A DNA stretch of 64,000 nucleotides from Sphingopyxis macrogoltabida. Lineage in GTDB: Bacteria > Pseudomonadota > Alphaproteobacteria > Sphingomonadales > Sphingomonadaceae. Below are positions 51,770 to 64,000 of the stretch, in pieces. The notes beneath the pieces were generated by a model, which had not been told where the DNA came from, ran no database searches, and worked only from the letters and a program-made list of their open reading frames with translations. The translations under genes were made by a program, and so were the position numbers. The stretch covers positions 685,001 to 749,000 of the forward strand of contig NZ_CP012700.1 in assembly GCF_001307295.1 (NCBI RefSeq), read 5' to 3'. The number at the start of each line of letters is the position of its first letter. The stretch's first letter is position 1.

Positions 51770-54205
51770 ATGAGTGACGCGGTCAAGGTTGCGATCATCG
51801 GTTCGGGCCCCGCGGGACTCAGCGCCGCGTCGCGTGCCGGGCAGCTCGGGCTGAGCCACGTCCTGCTCGAAAAGACCGACCATCTTTCCGATACGATCTT
51901 CAAATATCAGAAGGGCAAGCGCGTGCTTGCGACGCCCGAGCGGCTCGACCTGCGTTCCGACTGCCGTTTCGCCGAGGGCGCGCGCGAATATATCCTCGGC
52001 AACTGGGACGAGGACGCCGCCAATAACAAGGTGAATGTCGTCAAGCATGCCGAAGTCACCGAAGTGACGGGGCAGCAGGGCGCGTTCGAGATCAAGACCG
52101 CCAAGGGCGAGGTCTACAAGGCCGAGAATATCGTGCTGGCGATCGGCACGCAGGGCAATCCGAACCGCATGCGCTGCGGCGGCGCCGACCTGCCGCATAT
52201 CATCTATCAGGTCGACGACCCGGAGGATTTCAAGGACAAGCATATCACCGTCGTCGGATCGGGCGATGCGGGGATCGAAAACGCCCTCGGCGTCGCCGAA
52301 GAAGCGCTCGAAAATACCGTCACCATCCTCAACCGCTCGAAGGATTTCGCGCGCGCCAAGGCGAAGAATGTCTCCGACATGATGGAGGCGGGCGAGAACG
52401 GCTTCATGTCGATCCGCACCGAGACACAGCCGAAACTGGTCGAGCCCGGCTGGCTGACGCTCGAAACGCCGACCGGCGACGAGAAGATCCAGTGCGACGT
52501 GATCGTCGCGCGGCTGGGTTCGGTCGCGCCGCGCGGTTTCGTCGAATCGATGGGGATCGAGTTCACCGGGCCCGACCGCGAAGCCTTTCCGAAGCTGTCG
52601 CCGACCTTTGAATCGACCGTCCCCGGCATTTTCGTGATCGGTGCGCTCGCCGGCTATCCGCTGATCAAGCATTGCATGAACCAGGGCTATGATGTCGTCG
52701 AGTTCATCAACGGCAATACCGCGCTGACCCCCGCCGACGAAAAGGATCTCGCCGCAATCTTCGCAGGGCTGCCGCAGCAGAAACCGGTCAGCGAATGGCT
52801 CGAGTATCTGCGCACCCGCATCCGCATCTTCGCCGATGTCTCGCCGCTCCAGATGCGCGAATTCATGCTCGATTCGAAGGTCGCTTTCTATCGCAAGGGC
52901 GATGTGGTGTTCGAAAAGGGCGAGCCGGGATCGTCGCTGTTCGCCATCGCCGATGGCCATGCCGAGGTCGAGGTCGGTCCCGGCATCACCGTGCCGATCG
53001 AACAGGGATCGATCTTCGGCGAGGTCGGGCTGATTTCGGGCCGCAAGCGCGGCGCGACGATCCGCGCCGGCGAGGACAGCATCTTCGTCGAGGTCTCGCG
53101 CACCGCGGCGCTCAAGCTGATGGCGGCGGTGCCCGGCGCCAAGCGCGTGATCAACCGCATCTCGCTCGAACGCCAGTTGCTGCAGATCTTCAAGGGCGGG
53201 CTGACGGTCGACGATCTGGCCGAAGTCGTCGACACGGCGGAGGTCGAGCGCGTGCCTGCGGGCAAGACGGTGCTGACCGAGGGCGAGCAGGGCGACGACG
53301 TCTATGTCATCCGCTCGGGATCGATGGTGGTCGAGAAGGATATCGGCGGCAAGCCGATCTTCCTCCGCTATTTGCCCGCGGGCAGCTTTTTTGGCGAGAT
53401 GGGCGTGCTGAGCGGCGAGCCGCGCAACGCCACGGTGAAGGCGGCGGTGGGCGCCGAACTCATCAAGCTGACTGGTGAAAGCTTTCGCAAGATGCTCGCC
53501 GCGCGGCCGCAGGTGCGCGAGGCGACCGAGGCGGCGGTCGCTGAACGCGCGCAGATGAACAGCTTTATCGAATCGCGCAAGGCAAGCTATTCGAGCGCGG
53601 TCGACCTCTATTCGGACACCGCGAGCTTCATCATGAAGGAGGGGCTCGGCGAAGCGACCGACGCGCTCCTGATCGACGAGAATCTCTGCGTCGGCTGCGA
53701 CAATTGCGAGAAAGCGTGCGCCGACAGCCACGAAGGCCTGTCTCGGCTCGACCGCGAGGCGGGCAAGACCTTTGCGCATCTGCACGTCCCGACGAGTTGT
53801 CGCCACTGCGAGCATCCGCACTGCATGGCCGACTGCCCGCCGAACGTGATCCACCGCGGCCCCGATGGTGAGGTGTTCATGGAGCCGGGTTGCATCGGCT
53901 GCGGCAACTGCATGCGCAACTGCCCCTATGGCGTGATCCGCATGGAGGCGGCGCCACCCCAAAAGCCGAGCCTGCTGCGCTGGCTGCTCACCGGCTTCGG
54001 CCCCGGCCCCGGCGAACCGTCGCCCAAATGGACGAAGAAGCAGCTGGGTGAGGAGAAGCCGAAGAAGATCGCGGTCAAATGCGACATGTGCAAGGGCATC
54101 GCGGGCGGGCCCGCCTGCGTGCGGGCGTGCCCGACCGGCGCCGCAATCCGCGTGTCGCCCGAGGAGTTCCTGTCGATCGCGCGGCTGCAAGAGGACGCCG
54201 ACTGA
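51770..54205 (+). CDS. FAD/NAD(P) oxidoreductase with two cyclic-nucleotide-binding domains and a four-cluster [4Fe-4S] module
   Basis: The 811-residue cytoplasmic protein has four parts. Residues 1-325 are a thioredoxin-reductase-like flavoprotein with dinucleotide motifs GSGPAG (11-16) and GSGDAG (163-168); the redox CxxC of thioredoxin reductase is absent. Residues about 352-460 and 470-580 are two cNMP-binding domains whose phosphate cassettes keep Glu and Arg (E418/R427 in FGEVGLISGRKRGAT; E543/R552 in FGEMGVLSGEPRNAT). Residues 640-787 hold 16 cysteines in DmsB-like order (C640/643/646/650, C677/680/685/689, C708/711/714/718, C771/774/783/787), enough for four [4Fe-4S] clusters. It is a likely NAD(P)H-linked electron input (or output) module that binds cAMP or cGMP. 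Its stop overlaps the cytochrome b-like gene (TGATG). Confidence 0.88.
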   Translation: MSDAVKVAIIGSGPAGLSAASRAGQLGLSHVLLEKTDHLSDTIFKYQKGKRVLATPERLDLRSDCRFAEGAREYILGNWDEDAANNKVNVVKHAEVTEVTGQQGAFEIKTAKGEVYKAENIVLAIGTQGNPNRMRCGGADLPHIIYQVDDPEDFKDKHITVVGSGDAGIENALGVAEEALENTVTILNRSKDFARAKAKNVSDMMEAGENGFMSIRTETQPKLVEPGWLTLETPTGDEKIQCDVIVARLGSVAPRGFVESMGIEFTGPDREAFPKLSPTFESTVPGIFVIGALAGYPLIKHCMNQGYDVVEFINGNTALTPADEKDLAAIFAGLPQQKPVSEWLEYLRTRIRIFADVSPLQMREFMLDSKVAFYRKGDVVFEKGEPGSSLFAIADGHAEVEVGPGITVPIEQGSIFGEVGLISGRKRGATIRAGEDSIFVEVSRTAALKLMAAVPGAKRVINRISLERQLLQIFKGGLTVDDLAEVVDTAEVERVPAGKTVLTEGEQGDDVYVIRSGSMVVEKDIGGKPIFLRYLPAGSFFGEMGVLSGEPRNATVKAAVGAELIKLTGESFRKMLAARPQVREATEAAVAERAQMNSFIESRKASYSSAVDLYSDTASFIMKEGLGEATDALLIDENLCVGCDNCEKACADSHEGLSRLDREAGKTFAHLHVPTSCRHCEHPHCMADCPPNVIHRGPDGEVFMEPGCIGCGNCMRNCPYGVIRMEAAPPQKPSLLRWLLTGFGPGPGEPSPKWTKKQLGEEKPKKIAVKCDMCKGIAGGPACVRACPTGAAIRVSPEEFLSIARLQEDAD

Positions 54206-55086
54206 TGGCGAGCCTGTTCCAGCGCCGCCGCAACAAGGCCACGCAGGTCGAGCGCGTGCGCGAACGGCGGCACGAGGGTTTCCTGCGCTATGCGGGTTTC
54301 CGCTGGGCCAAGATCTCGGCCAGCCTTTGCCTGCTCGTGATCGTCAGCTACGCACTGGTCGACGTGACGCCGCGGCATAATGGCGGGAGCTGGTACGGCT
54401 ATACGCTCGGCACCATCGGCGCCGGGCTGATCTTGTGGCTCACCGCATTGGGTTATCGCAAGCGCAAGATGACGAGCGATCACTGGTCGCTAAAGGCATG
54501 GACCTCGGCGCATGTCTATCTGGGGCTGAGCCTGATTGTCATCGGCACCTGGCACACCGGCTTCCAGCTCGGCTGGAACGTCCACACGCTGGCTTGGGCG
54601 CTGATGATGCTCGTCATTCTGTCGGGGCTTTATGGTGTCGTCGTCTATGCGACCCTGCCCGCGGCGCTGTCGAACAACCGCGACGAGATGACGCAGATGC
54701 AGATGCTCGAGGCGATCCGCGCCTTCGACCGCCAGCTCCATACGGCGGCGCAGCCGCTGACGCCCGAGGACACGGCGCCGGTGCTCGCGGCGCTCGACGA
54801 GGACCCGTTCGCGGGTGGCATCGGGGCGCGGCTGTCGGGCCGCTACCCCGATTGCGCGACGGCGGCGGCGCACCGCGCGCTTTCCGCATCGCGGAGCAGC
54901 GATGCCGAGGCGCGCGAGAAGGTGGTCGGGCTGCTGTCGCAGAAGCAGGCGGCGCTCGGGCGGCTGCGCCAGCATCTTCGCATCCGCGCGTTGCTCGAAA
55001 TCTGGCTTTATGTGCATGTGCCGCTGACCTTCGCGCTGATCGCGGCGCTGTCGGCGCACATCGTCAGCGTCTTTTTCTACTGGTGA
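54205..55086 (+). CDS. Predicted di-heme cytochrome b-like membrane protein
   Basis: The 293-residue protein has about five helices. Two helices each carry a histidine pair 14 residues apart: His103/His117 (SAHVYLG ... GTWHTGF) and His271/His285 (YVHVPLT ... SAHIVSV). This is the His-x13-His spacing that binds two stacked b hemes in bc1-type cytochrome b and related quinone oxidoreductases. A further His127 and a soluble loop of about 105 residues (150-255) are present. It most likely carries electrons across the membrane between the [4Fe-4S] protein and the decaheme protein. ATG 54205 overlaps the preceding TGA. Confidence 0.78.
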   Translation: MASLFQRRRNKATQVERVRERRHEGFLRYAGFRWAKISASLCLLVIVSYALVDVTPRHNGGSWYGYTLGTIGAGLILWLTALGYRKRKMTSDHWSLKAWTSAHVYLGLSLIVIGTWHTGFQLGWNVHTLAWALMMLVILSGLYGVVVYATLPAALSNNRDEMTQMQMLEAIRAFDRQLHTAAQPLTPEDTAPVLAALDEDPFAGGIGARLSGRYPDCATAAAHRALSASRSSDAEAREKVVGLLSQKQAALGRLRQHLRIRALLEIWLYVHVPLTFALIAALSAHIVSVFFYW

Positions 55087-55096
55087 GGCGGGACCG

Positions 55097-57031
55097 ATGA
55101 GCTTCATCCTGCGCCGCATCTCGACGACGAAGACGGGCAAACAGATCATCCGCGATGCGCCGCTGCCCGGCGAGACGATCACGCTCGGCCGCGAGGGCAG
55201 CAACACGATCCACGTCGCCGATCTCGCGGTAAATCCCCATCATGCGACGATCAGCAGCGCCGACGGGCGCCACGTCCGCGTCGCGGCGAGCGAAGGGCTG
55301 GGCTTCGACATCAACGGCCGCTCGGTCGACACCGCCGATATCGACAGCGCCGCGGGCGCCGAACTGCGCTTCGGCGGCCACCGGCTGACGATCGCGCGCG
55401 AGGGCGACGACATCATCCTGCTCGTCGAGCGGATCGACGAGCTGTCGCAATCGTCGAAGGACGTCGACGAGGCCAAGGCCTTTTCGCTCGCCGGGGTGAT
55501 GCCCGGCAAGCGCATGGGGGCGTGGGTGTTCGGCCTCTTGATGCTGGCCGCCTTCCTGATCGGGCCGATCTGGGCGTGGTACAGCTACAGACAAGTGGAC
55601 GAGCGCCCCGACGGTTATCATGCCGACACCGCCTGGTTGTCCGGACCGCTGTCGAGCGCGCACGCCAGCCTGAAGAATGATTGCCAGTCGTGCCACGTCG
55701 AGCCGTTCGTTGCGGTGACCGACAAGGCGTGCGTTAATTGCCACACCGGCGAGCACAAGGCGATGAGCATGGCGCATGCGAACGCCCCGGCAGCGATGCT
55801 GCTCGCGGCACGCCATCCGCCGGGGGTGGGCGAGAAGATCCTCGCCGGCTTCGCGAAGACCTTCAACAAGCCGCAGGGGCGCTGCGTCGATTGCCATACC
55901 GAGCATGAGGGCGCGGGACCGATGCCCGCAACGCCGCAGAAATTCTGCGCCGATTGCCACGACGGCATGTCGGCGCGGCTGAAGACGGCGGGGCATCCGA
56001 CCTTGCTCGGCGACGCCGGCGATTTCGGCACCTGCCATCCCGAATTTCGCCCGCTCGTCCGCTCGGCGCCCGGCGCGAAGCTGGTGCGCAAGACGCTTGC
56101 CAAGGGCACGGTCGATTATAACGGCCTCAAATTCCCGCACGACCTGCATTTGCAGGCGACGGGCGGGGTCGCGCGCATGGCGGCGAGTTTCCGCGGCCGA
56201 TACGATTTCGGGCAAAAGCTCGAATGCGAAAACTGCCATCGCCCCGACGCCGACGGGGTACGGATCAAGCCGGTCGAGATGGAGCGCGACTGCGCGATGT
56301 GCCACAGCCTCGCGTTCGAGACCGTCGGCGGGGTGACGCGCACGCTGCGCCATGGCGAGCCCGATCAGGTCGTCGCCGACCTCACCGCCTATTATCGCTC
56401 GGCCCCGCCGGCGCGGCCGTTGCAGCTCGGCGGGATGCAGCGGCGGCGGCCCGGAAACTATGCCGAGGGGCAAGTCTACAACATCTATTTCCGCGAGGTC
56501 GCGGTGCGGCCGAGCCGGGCGCAGGACGCGGTGCGCGCGGTCTTCTCGAAGGGCGGCGCCTGTTACGACTGCCACACCATTTTTGCGCCGCAGGCCGGGC
56601 AGGGATGGCGGGTCGCCGCGATCGACCAGACACCGCGCTTCCTGCAAAAGGGCTGGTTCGATCATGACGCGCACAAGGAAACCGACTGCGCCGGCTGTCA
56701 CACCGCCGCACCCGGATCGAAGGCCGCGACCGACCTGCTGGTTCCCGGCGTCCGCCAGTGCCGCGACTGCCATGTCGGCGAGGGCGGCGCGCGGCTGGTG
56801 AAGGTCGAGACAGCGACCGAATCGCCGTGCGCGATGTGTCACGAATATCATTCGGACGGCGGCAAGCCGTGGATGCCGCCGACGCAGCGCAAGAAGAATG
56901 TGAGCGCGATCACAGACCGGCCGCCGCGCGGCGCCTATGCTGTGAGCCTGATCACAGGTGGCGAACGGCGCGGTCTTTATGATGTGACGTGGCGCGCGCC
57001 TGCGCTAAGACCCGCCGACAGGGGTGGATGA
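55097..57031 (+). CDS. FHA domain-transmembrane-decaheme cytochrome c fusion
   Basis: The 644 residues comprise an N-terminal FHA-like domain (about 1-115; Gly31-Arg32, Ser35-Asn36, His48/49 in the usual GR...SN...H order), one membrane helix (141-162), and a periplasmic region with ten CxxCH heme sites (C196, C212, C263, C284, C377, C399, C489, C531, C555, C578). A degenerate eleventh site (FGTCH, 310-314) has lost its first cysteine. FHA domains read phosphothreonine, so the cytoplasmic end may sense kinase signals while the other end conducts electrons. It starts 10 nt after the cytochrome b-like gene. The tail after residue 600 encodes two CRP-like sites. Confidence 0.88.
   Translation: MSFILRRISTTKTGKQIIRDAPLPGETITLGREGSNTIHVADLAVNPHHATISSADGRHVRVAASEGLGFDINGRSVDTADIDSAAGAELRFGGHRLTIAREGDDIILLVERIDELSQSSKDVDEAKAFSLAGVMPGKRMGAWVFGLLMLAAFLIGPIWAWYSYRQVDERPDGYHADTAWLSGPLSSAHASLKNDCQSCHVEPFVAVTDKACVNCHTGEHKAMSMAHANAPAAMLLAARHPPGVGEKILAGFAKTFNKPQGRCVDCHTEHEGAGPMPATPQKFCADCHDGMSARLKTAGHPTLLGDAGDFGTCHPEFRPLVRSAPGAKLVRKTLAKGTVDYNGLKFPHDLHLQATGGVARMAASFRGRYDFGQKLECENCHRPDADGVRIKPVEMERDCAMCHSLAFETVGGVTRTLRHGEPDQVVADLTAYYRSAPPARPLQLGGMQRRRPGNYAEGQVYNIYFREVAVRPSRAQDAVRAVFSKGGACYDCHTIFAPQAGQGWRVAAIDQTPRFLQKGWFDHDAHKETDCAGCHTAAPGSKAATDLLVPGVRQCRDCHVGEGGARLVKVETATESPCAMCHEYHSDGGKPWMPPTQRKKNVSAITDRPPRGAYAVSLITGGERRGLYDVTWRAPALRPADRGG
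56899..56990 (+). promoter_or_regulatory. Tandem CRP-type sites and promoter for cpdA
   Basis: Two perfect TGTGA-N6-TCACA palindromes lie at 56899-56914 and 56941-56956, 42 bp centre to centre, four helical turns. TATGAT at 56978-56983 is a near-consensus -10. A start at 56990 would place the sites at -41.5 and -83.5, the geometry of a CRP class II promoter with an upstream site. The sites are inside the 3' coding end of the decaheme gene; cpdA begins 84 nt after the predicted start. Confidence 0.75.
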
Positions 57032-57073
57032 AGATTGGGCGGTCGGACCAGCCGGCCGGAGCAGGGGACGGAT

Positions 57074-57922
57074 ATGCTGATCGCCCAGATCACCGATATT
57101 CATATCGGTTTCGATCCGGACAATCCGGCGGAATATAACCGCAAGCGGCTCGACGAGGTCCTCGACGTGCTGATCGACGGCCCGAACCGTCCCGACCTTT
57201 TGCTCGCCACCGGCGACATCACCGACCGCGGCGACGCCGACAGCTATCGCCGCCTCGCCACCGCTTTCTCGCGCTGTCCCTTCCCGGTGTGGCCGAGCGT
57301 CGGCAACCACGACGTGCGCGACAATTTTCACGCGCAGTTTCCGGGTTTCGACGACGGCAGCGGCTTTGTCCAATATGCGATCGAACTGCCCGAAGTGCGG
57401 CTGGTGACGGTCGACACGCTCGAGGAAGGACGTCACGGCGGCGCCTTTTGCGAGCGCCGCGCCGCCTGGCTCGACGCCGAACTGGCGAAGGACGGGACGA
57501 AGCCGACCTATGTCGTGATGCACCACCCGCCGGTCGAGAGCGGCATCGAGTGGATGAACACGCACCCCGACGAGCCCTGGGTCGCGACCTTCGGCGATGT
57601 CGTGCGGCGCCACCCACAGGTTCGTGGTCTCATCTGCGGTCACCTGCACCGCAGCGTCACCGTCGCATGGGAAGGACGCACCATCGCGATCTGCTCGTCG
57701 ACCGCGCCGCAGGTGTCGCTCGACCTCAGGCCGATCGACGAGAATCATCCCGACGACCGCCCGATGATCGTCGCCGAAGATCCCGCCTATGCCCTCCACC
57801 GCTGGAACGGCCGCGAACTGGTGAGCTTCTATGATCACGCCGGTGCGCACACGATGCTCGCCAAATATGACCGGGGCCTGCAGCCGCTGGTCCGCGAGTT
57901 GAAAGCCGAGCGACCGGCTTAA
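57074..57922 (+). CDS. cpdA: CpdA-type class III cAMP phosphodiesterase (metallophosphoesterase)
   Basis: The 282-residue calcineurin-like phosphoesterase has all metal-site motifs: D8-x-H10, GD (D48), GNHD (N79, H80, D81), H150 in VVMHHPP and GHLH (H190, H192). The arrangement and size match CpdA, which hydrolyses cAMP to AMP; other small-substrate phosphodiesterases share the fold, so activity on cAMP is inferred. ATG 57074 is chosen over an upstream in-frame ATG for the GGGGACG site and family N-terminus MLIAQITDIH. CRP-type sites upstream suggest negative feedback on cAMP, as known for Pseudomonas Vfr and cpdA. It overlaps the convergent regulator gene by 4 nt. Confidence 0.82.
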   Translation: MLIAQITDIHIGFDPDNPAEYNRKRLDEVLDVLIDGPNRPDLLLATGDITDRGDADSYRRLATAFSRCPFPVWPSVGNHDVRDNFHAQFPGFDDGSGFVQYAIELPEVRLVTVDTLEEGRHGGAFCERRAAWLDAELAKDGTKPTYVVMHHPPVESGIEWMNTHPDEPWVATFGDVVRRHPQVRGLICGHLHRSVTVAWEGRTIAICSSTAPQVSLDLRPIDENHPDDRPMIVAEDPAYALHRWNGRELVSFYDHAGAHTMLAKYDRGLQPLVRELKAERPA

Positions 57923-58962
57923 TTCTTTTCGGCCGCAATCATGGCGCCGGCGATGCACGCAGCGAACAGCGCCGCCTCCAGCATGGCCGTGGCTAGCTCG
58001 CCTGCCGTTCCGATGCCGCGCTCGCCAAAGAGCGCGCCGATCGCATCGAGATCGAGGCGCGAGCCGGGGAAGCGGCGTTCGAGCAGCGCGAGACTGCCGC
58101 CGAACAGCCGCCCTCCCAACAGGCTGATCGTCGCGCCGCCGGCCGCGCCAACGAGTGCGGCGAGTGCGGTGCGCCTTGCGAACGGCCAGCCGGGCGCGCG
58201 CCGGGCGACCCAGAGGGCGATACCGACGGTCCCGCCGAGCAGGGCGCCTTCGGCCGCGCCGGTAAAATCGCCCGGGCTTTGTCCCAGCAGCAGGCTGAAC
58301 GCATCGAGTCCGATCAGCTTGGCGATCGCCCCGACCAGAAAACCGCCGGCTGCGCCGCCGATGATCGTCCACATGTCGCGCCGCGCCGGGGCGAAGTGCG
58401 CAGCGGCGATGCCGAAGGATACGCCGGCGCCGCCGATCGCCGCCAGCGTGGTGGTCAGCGCGAGCAGTACCAGCAGCACGGAGAGGGCGTTGCCGCCTGT
58501 CGCCGATGGCTGGGCCGCGGCAACCAGACCATAGAGCAGCCCGCCGATCGCGCCGGCGAGCGCCGCGCCGGCCGTACCCGCACCGCCGGTCAGCAGAATA
58601 TCGTGGATGCGGGGCGCCGCCACCGGCGGCGTGGAAGGCGCCACGACGGTTTCGACCGCCGCGATAAAACGATAACCGTGCTTGGGAACCGTTTCGATAA
58701 AGCTCGGCCGTATCGCGTCGTCGCCGAGCAGACGGCGCAGCGTCCGGATGCATTGGGTCAGCGCCTCATCGGTCACCGGCACGCCATGCCAAACCTCATT
58801 CATGAACCGGTCCTTGGGCACCATCCGACCGTGTTCGCGCACGAGCAGCGCGAGCGCGTCGAGATAGCGGGCGTTGAGGTCGACCGGGTTGCCGCCTTTC
58901 AGCAGACGCCGGTCGCCGGGCTCGAACAGAAAGGCATCGAAGCGATAGCTTTCCACGGTCAT
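57919..58962 (-). CDS. CadC-like membrane regulator with OmpR-type winged helix
   Basis: The 347-residue protein has an N-terminal OmpR/PhoB-type DNA-binding domain (about residues 5-105; RYLDALALLVREHGRMV, then LRRLLGDD and VPKHGYRFIAAV) followed by a C-terminal region of six or more Gly/Ala-rich hydrophobic helices (from about residue 120) rather than the single helix and periplasmic sensor of classic CadC. It lacks a receiver domain, so it probably senses the membrane or a small ligand directly. It is divergent from the small membrane protein at 59051 (88-nt gap), its likeliest target. Confidence 0.82.
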   Translation of the reverse strand: MTVESYRFDAFLFEPGDRRLLKGGNPVDLNARYLDALALLVREHGRMVPKDRFMNEVWHGVPVTDEALTQCIRTLRRLLGDDAIRPSFIETVPKHGYRFIAAVETVVAPSTPPVAAPRIHDILLTGGAGTAGAALAGAIGGLLYGLVAAAQPSATGGNALSVLLVLLALTTTLAAIGGAGVSFGIAAAHFAPARRDMWTIIGGAAGGFLVGAIAKLIGLDAFSLLLGQSPGDFTGAAEGALLGGTVGIALWVARRAPGWPFARRTALAALVGAAGGATISLLGGRLFGGSLALLERRFPGSRLDLDAIGALFGERGIGTAGELATAMLEAALFAACIAGAMIAAEKN

Positions 58963-62569: not shown

Positions 62570-64000
62570 TCAGGGCTGCTGCGTGTCGGTCGTCGGCGTC
62601 CACAGATCGTCGTTGCCCGCGCCGGTCACCGGATCGTCGAGCAACGGCTCGCCGGTCAGCGGATCGAGGTCGCGCATCGTGATCAGCGATTGCGGCAGGG
62701 TGATGCCGTCGTCGCCGTCGTCGTCGACCTCTTCCTCGATGACATCCTGCACCGGGAAGCTGTTGTGATATTCGGGTTCGGGTATCGCGAGGCAGGCGCC
62801 GGTGTTGGCGATCAGACAGCCGTTGAAGCGCGAACGCTGGTCAAAGGCGTCGGTGGGAGCCTGACCGCTCGCGATGCCGTTGATCGTCAGCAGCGGGATC
62901 GTATCGAGCCCGGTGACCTGTCCCGACGGGCCGAGATGGACGCCGTTGATCACGATCCGCGTGTCCGGACCCGCGGTATCGACGTTGAGGCCGAGTGCGC
63001 CGAAGGTCAGGCCGCGGCGTTCGCCGAAGTCGCTGCCGCCGCTGTTCTGGACATAGAAGCCGCCGCTGACCCCGACATTGATGCCGCCCGCGAAGAGCGC
63101 GCCTTCGTCGCTCGTGATCCCGTCGTTCTGTGCCAGCCGGTCCTCGATCGCATCGGTACTGCTTGCGGCGGCGACATCGTCGATCGCCGCGAGCGTCGCG
63201 ACGATCACGTCTTCGGAGGCGAGGTTTAACCGCCCGGCGGGCGCGCTGCTGCTGCTCCCCAAAAGGCGGATCGACGCCTCGCCCAGAATGATTTCGAGCG
63301 ACTGGTCGGCGAAGATGTTGAGGGCGTTGTTGTCGCCCATGCCGGTCAGCGCGACATCGCCGACGACGCGCGCCGTCCCCGGGGTGGCGATCGTCAGCGA
63401 TCCGTTCGCACCGAGGTTCGAGGTCGCCGACCCCGCGGTCATCGTGAAATCGTCGATCACCACATCGGGCGGCACGGTGCCGATGAAGCGCCCGCCCGAC
63501 CGGTCGACCGCAGGCGCGAAGATGCGGATTTCGGCGCCATAGACGCGCGTCAACTCGTCGGCATCGATATGATAGCCGTTCTGCGTGCCGGTGCCGCCGA
63601 TAAAGGTCTGCACCCGGTTGTCGATGTTGCGGAGCTCGAGGCTTTCGGTGGTGCCGGTGCCGACGCGGCCGGCGCTGGCGACGGCGATATCGGCCGAAGC
63701 GAGCGACATCGTCCGGCCGGTAACCGTCCCGTTGGCCGTCAGCAGCGACTGGGCGGTCGCCGACAGGATGTCATCGGCGGTTACGTTGCCGAGCGTCATC
63801 GTGTCGTTCGAGGCGAGGATCGCATTGCCGGCGTCGAGCTGGCTGACGGCAAGATTGCCGCCTGCGGACAGCCGCGCTTCGCCCGCCACCGTTCCGGTGG
63901 TGATGGCAAGATTGCCGCTGGTGGTGATGCGCGCGTCGCCGGTATCGGTCTGGAGCTGGCTGAAGATCAGATTGCCCGAACCATCGATTGTCACGCTGTC
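62570..64000 (-). CDS. Large repetitive adhesin (filamentous-haemagglutinin-like), C-terminal part
   Basis: About 476 residues of a longer protein are visible; the 5' end lies outside the window. The first 130 residues show imperfect beta-strand repeats of the form SAGGNLAVSQLDAGNA and DTMTLGNVTADDI, typical of parallel beta-helix exoproteins of two-partner secretion or autotransporter systems. The last part is less repetitive, has a Cys pair (FNGCLIANTGACLAI) and an acidic stretch (EEEVDDDGDDG), and ends without a translocator barrel, so export by a separate TpsB-like pore is more likely than autotransport. The call is by composition; no motif proves it. Confidence 0.6.
   Translation of the reverse strand, partial: DSVTIDGSGNLIFSQLQTDTGDARITTSGNLAITTGTVAGEARLSAGGNLAVSQLDAGNAILASNDTMTLGNVTADDILSATAQSLLTANGTVTGRTMSLASADIAVASAGRVGTGTTESLELRNIDNRVQTFIGGTGTQNGYHIDADELTRVYGAEIRIFAPAVDRSGGRFIGTVPPDVVIDDFTMTAGSATSNLGANGSLTIATPGTARVVGDVALTGMGDNNALNIFADQSLEIILGEASIRLLGSSSSAPAGRLNLASEDVIVATLAAIDDVAAASSTDAIEDRLAQNDGITSDEGALFAGGINVGVSGGFYVQNSGGSDFGERRGLTFGALGLNVDTAGPDTRIVINGVHLGPSGQVTGLDTIPLLTINGIASGQAPTDAFDQRSRFNGCLIANTGACLAIPEPEYHNSFPVQDVIEEEVDDDGDDGITLPQSLITMRDLDPLTGEPLLDDPVTGAGNDDLWTPTTDTQQP

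Follow-up and report, generated by a model that had tools for sequence, protein, structure and literature searches.

Introduction

The systems closest to the locus reported here are the Ext clusters of Geobacter and the MtrCAB porin-cytochrome conduits. According to the excerpted text of PMC5877670, the extHIJKLMNOPQS genes of G. sulfurreducens bring together an inner-membrane b-type cytochrome, an iron-sulfur (Fe-S) protein, several multihaem cytochromes c and a porin-like outer-membrane protein within a single conserved cluster, and include a Rieske protein (ExtO) and a cytochrome b of the bc-complex type (ExtP); ext clusters are also treated in the excerpt of PMC6148476, and Thioclava in that of PMC9226611. 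A survey of MtrCAB reports, in its excerpted part, a single alphaproteobacterial MtrCAB (PMC8805035).

Here we describe four adjacent genes, p1 to p4, in a 64,000-nucleotide stretch of the Sphingopyxis macrogoltabida genome (contig NZ_CP012700.1, positions 685,001 to 749,000; hereafter the window). We propose, with confidence slightly better than even, that they belong to a cyclic-nucleotide-gated conduit across the envelope, running from reduced nicotinamide adenine dinucleotide (phosphate), NAD(P)H, as far as the outer envelope and subject to feedback by a CRP-type regulator and a phosphodiesterase. The proposal is built on domains, cofactor motifs, co-occurrence, gene linkage and conserved palindromes as read in the sequences, and on a structure model for the putative outer-membrane barrel. 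Searches of open-licence full texts brought up no account of the system among the listings and passages, which is weak evidence of absence.

Results

A conserved four-gene locus

The genes, all on the plus strand, are as follows (aa, amino acids):

51770..54205, plus strand: p1, 811 aa
54205..55086, plus strand: p2, 293 aa
55097..57031, plus strand: p3, 644 aa
57074..57922, plus strand: p4, 282 aa from its ATG start

The initial annotation had placed four adjacent plus-strand genes at 51770-57922, and all four open reading frames (ORFs) are present with the domains named there. p1 and p2 overlap by one base (TGATG), and an alternative listed start of p4, at 57035, is a TTG. The host genome comprises 5.1 Mb in 6 contigs, with the module on the 4.76-Mb contig C1.

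Relatives were collected by scanning GTDB genome contigs for p2; the best 80 of 217 make up the locus set, which is drawn from Sphingomonadales apart from a few metagenome-assembled genome records with broad or doubtful names (L and G numbers below are our handles for loci and genomes). Order and strand of p1-p2-p3-p4 were kept in all 69 loci in which the four genes are full-length, and the arrangement is therefore not due to chance. p4 is the full-length fourth gene in 76 of the 80 loci, the contig ending first in the other four; p1 was undetected on the short contig of L044 and lies off the contig end in L069. Conservation of ate and pyk, which flank the locus, is mostly limited to the Sphingopyxis group (n = 47: L009-L055 except L044, plus L061; a few of the records carry other names), with ate also found at L056 and L059.

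Joint conservation of the three redox genes had been set beforehand as a refutation test of the controlled module, and the genes passed it. Among 289 alphaproteobacterial genomes (sample 1; strong matches defined as E 1e-20 or better for p3 and 1e-100 or better for p1), p2 and p3 were both strongly matched in one set of 27, of which 26 also had p1, so that the three form a nested set; the genome lacking p1 is a draft, G224. The genes are contiguous as p1-p2-p3 in 23 of the 27 genomes and as p2-p3 in all 27, with p1 directly following the LVIVD gene (see below) in G178 and G274 and lying on another contig in G120. In a sample of 299 genomes from the phylum (sample 2; p2 at E 0.001 or better), p2 was found in 12, nine of them strong matches and four of these nine outside Alphaproteobacteria; two of the four (one other genus) carry p1 and p2 fused into proteins of 1,118 and 1,123 aa. 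The spread covers 15 family labels among the 289 alphaproteobacteria and extends to other classes of the phylum.

Two loci, L154 and L161 (from G224 and G120), have p2-p3 without an adjacent p1 and carry a four-haem cytochrome c gene upstream. Weak p2 matches in 5 genomes of sample 1 (E 5.2e-6 to 5.6e-4) and 3 of sample 2 (E 1.3e-4 to 4.5e-4) were set aside as cousin systems. These (L166-L170 and L176-L178) combine a protein with cyclic nucleoside monophosphate (cNMP)-binding and Fe-S domains, lacking a flavin domain, with a p2-like and a ten-haem protein, and have c-type neighbours; L170 has, next to these genes, a beta-strand-rich ORF and a separate reductase of the FNR type (FAD/NAD/2Fe-2S). 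The reductase module seems to be exchangeable.

p1 joins flavin, cNMP-binding and Fe-S modules

p1 is a cytoplasmic flavoprotein composed of the following parts (FAD, flavin adenine dinucleotide):

about aa 5-310: FAD/NAD(P)H module, TrxR/YpdA-type
about aa 373-460 and 493-577: two cNMP-binding domains
Cys 640-787: four 4Fe-4S motifs
52991..53077, plus strand: phosphate-binding cassette region of cNMP domain 1, from cassette pattern and alignment, IFGEVGLISGRKRGATI
53363..53455, plus strand: phosphate-binding cassette region of cNMP domain 2, from cassette pattern and alignment, FFGEMGVLSGEPRNATV

Pfam assigned Pyr_redox_3, Fer4 families and two stretches of cNMP_binding (PF00027, 113.7 bits against a cut-off of 27.5). 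In an alignment of 29 p1 sequences (that of the window, three from the locus set and 25 from other genomes), the G-E and R of both cassettes and all 16 Fe-S cysteines were kept in every sequence, bearing out the initial annotation of a flavoprotein with two Glu/Arg-bearing cNMP domains and cysteines for four [4Fe-4S] clusters. Across the locus set, the strict cassette pattern was found in domain 1 of 69 of 71 p1s and in domain 2 of all 71; the two departures, L014 and L016, differ at the T of the pattern and retain GE and R. Pockets were still intact in the most distant p1 (L173), at about 43% identity to that of the window. Conservation of the pocket residues extends well outside the genus, so that binding of a cyclic nucleotide by p1 is strongly predicted; the sequence does not discriminate between cAMP and cGMP as the ligand.

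Many domains of the cNMP fold bind no nucleotide, and those of p1 might likewise serve as structural spacers or dimerisation modules of a constitutive NAD(P)H-to-cytochrome reductase lacking any gate. The host genome does hold other cNMP proteins (9 profile matches, 2 of them in p1). Against such a role stand the Glu and Arg maintained in both pockets throughout the alignment and the company that p1 keeps in profile searches of the PDB: the top match was the T. gondii protein 9ya0, and matches to YpdA/Bdr and HycB-type chains were accompanied by true cAMP and cGMP binders, namely PKA regulatory subunits and PKG (E about 1e-27 to 1e-26). A candidate phosphodiesterase gene and CRP-type sites also adjoin the redox genes. 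We therefore consider silent cNMP domains rather unlikely.

The host genome encodes two class III cyclases. One cyclase gene lies on C1 at about 757.7-762.5 kb (L183), outside the module gene cluster; its neighbours, judged by eye, resemble an FhaC-type transporter and a CHAT-type protein. A further gene of the same genome (L006:1402-3084, plus strand; C1 about 1620.8 kb) encodes a 561-aa cNMP-thioredoxin-reductase fusion which, unlike p1, has its cNMP domain at the N terminus (the reverse order) and no Fe-S domain.

p2 and p3 are candidate membrane and periplasmic cytochromes

p2 contains two HX13H pairs, His103/117 and His271/285, and these four residues, together with a fifth (His127), were invariant in 21 aligned sequences, in keeping with the di-haem b-type membrane protein first annotated. 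The AlphaFold model is all-helical (predicted local distance difference test, pLDDT, 83) and places the pairs on helices H96-118 and H234-292 with matching spacing. Pfam gave only a sub-threshold match to cytochrome b561 (PF01292, 16.6 against 30.1), and fold searches of the PDB, with helical-bundle matches only and no cytochrome b among the matches listed, were uninformative. On its sequence, p2 is a candidate di-haem b-type membrane cytochrome.

p3 consists of an N-terminal domain resembling a forkhead-associated (FHA) domain, one membrane helix (by eye) and ten CXXCH motifs, with Pfam matches to Cytochrome_C7/c3 families. Ten CXXCH were counted in 76 of 77 full-length p3s of the locus set and nine in L020. 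An eleventh haem site was considered at FGTCH (aa 310-314, window 56024-56038) and rejected, as Cys was present in 0 of 26 aligned relatives and His in all. A PF14522 search of the host genome gave no match and missed p3 itself, and was not used as evidence.

The initial annotation had read p3 as an FHA-helix-decahaem protein; the helix and the ten CXXCH stand, whereas the N-terminal domain scored under the cut-offs of both the FHA profile (17.0 against 20.7) and the Yop-YscD_cpl profile (20.9 against 33.2). In FHA domains, phosphothreonine reading involves a ligand Ser in SxxH and the Asn of NG. The GR of the domain (G31 R32) was invariant in 19 aligned p3s, but the SxxH Ser was absent from all 76 scored of the 77 Sphingomonadales p3s, position -3 from the His being occupied by N (48), E (18), T (4), D (3), A (2) or L (1), and the NG position held N in 48 and an acidic residue, D or E, in the remaining 28. 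Among 29 distant p3s listed, of which L174 was not scorable for this residue, Ser was seen by eye in L147, L163 and L175, with the His too only in L175. Because this Ser is missing, the phosphothreonine reader once suggested for the terminal cytochrome was rejected; the domain is, by its sequence, degenerate, and is likelier to serve in docking than in reading phosphothreonine. A single kinase-family match was found in the host genome, on another contig.

Outer-envelope partners

The path first annotated ended at a periplasmic multihaem cytochrome c and was incomplete in this respect, as the conserved partners of the trio include a putative outer-membrane barrel and further multihaem proteins. 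More multihaem genes lie beside the module in other bacteria, and in many relatives the partner genes share an operon with the trio. In 15 loci p3 is followed on the same strand by an HbpS-like gene, a barrel gene and a gene for a decahaem protein with LVIVD repeats; in L151, L155 and L172 the stretch breaks off before this series is complete. The LVIVD gene also lies within the retrieved stretch in 20 of 32 non-Sphingopyxis loci of the locus set, many of these stretches being short, mostly on the opposite strand beyond p4 and, in L062, upstream of p1. In the host genome the partner set is at C1:3998674-4008322 and comprises a c554-like tetrahaem protein, an HbpS-like lipoprotein candidate, a 633-aa barrel and a 1433-aa decahaem protein with LVIVD repeats.

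The LVIVD decahaem protein was found in 20 of the 289 genomes of sample 1, all within the 27 that carry p2 and p3 (Fisher 2.6e-25 for co-occurrence with p2, relatedness ignored); weak matches in 5 genomes (E 4.7e-11 to 2.2e-8), covering short stretches only, were set aside. The barrel model has 18 long strands, with a pLDDT of 65 overall and mostly 70-89 in the barrel, and its nearest structures are AlgE and Occ/OprD porins. L145 carries a beta-strand-rich ORF beside c-type genes (by eye), for which there was no Pfam match.

The likeness of the model to substrate porins suits a different use of the same parts, in which the barrel would admit a soluble oxidant or oxyanion to be reduced in the periplasm, by the LVIVD decahaem or c554-type proteins supplied through p1-p2-p3, with no external wiring. 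The best NCBIfam match of the LVIVD protein is ExtM (NF040943), of the Geobacter selenite/tellurite operon, and the protein has a signal-peptide-like start with no evident lipobox (by eye), both in line with a periplasmic reductase; the ExtM score, however, is far under its cut-off (70.5 bits against 800), and the HbpS-like protein, with its lipobox-like start and long Pro/Thr linker (by eye), suits a surface lipoprotein. We regard this porin-plus-reductase arrangement as unlikely.

p4 and CRP-type palindromes

p4 matches Metallophos in Pfam, and metallophosphoesterase motifs were found in 75 of 76 p4 relatives. It matches the profiles of both class III phosphodiesterases SpdA (NF050112, 139.1 against a curated cut-off of 400) and CpdA (NF008359, 78.1 against 225), but falls under both curated cut-offs, and the profile scores assign no substrate. 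The CpdA-like phosphodiesterase of the initial annotation is better termed a metallophosphoesterase and candidate SpdA/CpdA-like cyclic-nucleotide phosphodiesterase. A candidate CadC-type winged-helix regulator (window 57919-58962, minus strand) adjoins p4 and is present in 3 of the 80 loci (L009, L030 and L034).

Two CRP-type palindromes precede p4 (strand not assigned):

56899..56914: TGTGAGCGCGATCACA, within p3 at its 3' end and upstream of p4
56941..56956: TGTGAGCCTGATCACA, 42 bp after the first, upstream of p4

The pattern TGTGAN6TCACA thus occurs twice in the window against 0.03 expected, and in three places in the whole genome, against one for the reversed control pattern; the third exact place is C1:781812-781827 (L216). 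Of the 47 Sphingopyxis-group loci, 45 have an exact site no more than 400 bp ahead of p4; of the other two, one has a site with one mismatch, and the best site in L055, where the p4 start is misplaced, has four. Looking instead at the last 180 bp of p3, a CRP-type site was found in all 47 loci, one with a changed last base. Apart from that base the half-sites are invariant across the 47 sites and the inner six positions vary, a pattern expected of a protein-binding site rather than of coding constraint. ACA, the Thr codon within the site, is otherwise seldom used in these genes (173 of 1802 Thr codons, counting the sites themselves). Upstream of p1, no CRP-type site was found in the 300 bp of any of 71 loci with one mismatch allowed. 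The host genome encodes, at about 1590.7 kb on C1, a CRP homologue with an intact-looking cassette, and a CRP-type protein would be expected to bind the palindromes; if so, the sites before p4 would give the module an independent link to cyclic nucleotide.

At the end of the window, a minus-strand ORF (62570-63994) resembles a repeat-rich exoprotein.

Discussion

Proposed mechanism

In the conduit that we propose, NAD(P)H would reduce the FAD of p1, and the four 4Fe-4S clusters would relay the electrons to p2, whose two b-haems would span the inner membrane with His103-His271 on the cytoplasmic side and His117-His285 on the periplasmic side (topology was judged by eye, on charges and helices). 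They would then reach the periplasmic decahaem domain of membrane-anchored p3, whose FHA-like domain may dock p1, and continue from the p3 haems to the c554-like tetrahaem protein, the HbpS-like lipoprotein, the barrel and the LVIVD decahaem, towards a presumed final acceptor. Because the cNMP domains lie between the FAD and Fe-S domains, a ligand bound to the tandem would shift one relative to the other, opening or closing electron flow. p4 would degrade the cyclic-nucleotide signal, and the feedback loop would be completed by a CRP-type regulator at the two palindromes that precede p4.

Outward flow would be driven by NAD(P)H and by the membrane potential, and would drain the latter, which may be the reason for a gate. 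Since all of the carriers are reversible in principle, the multihaem proteins might instead oxidise periplasmic or extracellular donors, with p2 and p1 making NAD(P)H. The membrane is negative inside, so that outward electron movement is favoured and inward movement costs energy; only donors of very low potential would serve, and inward flow appears improbable.

Several points weigh against a gated outward conduit. Intact pockets do not preclude a structural role of cNMP domains or a response to other ligands, and in the eight cousin loci a pattern search found a clear cNMP pocket in only 5, one per protein. The system is patchy, with p2 in 4 of 13 listed genomes of the window's family in sample 2. 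Outside that family, p4 lies near the trio in 1 of 29 strong-p2 stretches (L142-L165 and L171-L175, several of which end early at contig ends), so that the phosphodiesterase is not ancestral; p4 is a fixed neighbour of the trio only in Sphingomonadales. Outside the Sphingopyxis group, a CRP-type site with one mismatch was found in 6 of 29 loci and none that close in 23, against a background of 52 in 2000 random 400-bp stretches of these loci with one mismatch or fewer; the p3 tail that holds the palindromes is not conserved there. The partner cluster is unlinked to the module in the host genome (3.26 Mb away along the contig), and 7 of the 27 p2 genomes yielded no LVIVD decahaem; four of these 7 have a c554-like neighbour and two a four-haem ORF, the contig of the last (G025) ending within HbpS. 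As modelled, an 18-strand porin-like barrel is perhaps too narrow to enclose a cytochrome. Finally, Sphingopyxis are generally aerobic heterotrophs and are not known to respire metals.

The fullest form of the proposal is a chain from NAD(P)H to outer-membrane multihaem proteins that is switched as a whole, directly and allosterically, by cyclic nucleotide, is subject to feedback from a CRP-controlled phosphodiesterase and spends membrane potential when open. This form is tentative, and we hold it likelier to be wrong than right.

Comparison with known systems

The N-terminal third of p1 is of the same kind as YpdA/Bdr (TrxR-like; PDB 7a7b was matched), but this part has no CxxC (by eye) and scores under the curated cut-off for the bacillithiol disulfide reductase YpdA (TIGR04018, 128.4 bits against 339.9). 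Like PKA and PKG, p1 carries a tandem pair of cNMP domains whose phosphate-binding cassettes are intact; unlike them, it holds these between flavin and Fe-S modules and not on a kinase. The known targets of cyclic nucleotides are transcription factors, kinases, channels and exchange factors, and direct gating of electron transfer by a cyclic nucleotide stands a real chance of being new in kind. If true, direct cyclic-nucleotide control would gain a new class of target, an electron-transfer enzyme, and common soil and water bacteria would possess an unrecognised electron route towards the cell surface.

The MtrB-type barrel is larger than the 18-strand, porin-like barrel predicted here, and electrons enter Mtr from quinol, whereas entry here would be from NAD(P)H. 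No MtrC/MtrF domain was over cut-off: p3 scored 24.6 against 30 with PF22113, and the domain was not listed for the LVIVD decahaem. The proposed plan of inner-membrane entry, periplasmic decahaem, outer-membrane barrel and further decahaem is nonetheless shared with MtrCAB and other porin-cytochrome conduits, as excerpted in PMC8805035. p2 had no Ext match in the NCBIfam search, and for p1 the best 25 of 136 NCBIfam matches were listed. The Geobacter Ext cluster has the same component classes, and the LVIVD decahaem weakly matches ExtM, but the excerpted text of PMC5877670 mentions no NAD(P)H flavoprotein or cNMP domain. MtrCAB and Geobacter Ext are thus relatives that work alike, from which the present system is set apart by its scores under the curated cut-offs and by its entry module.

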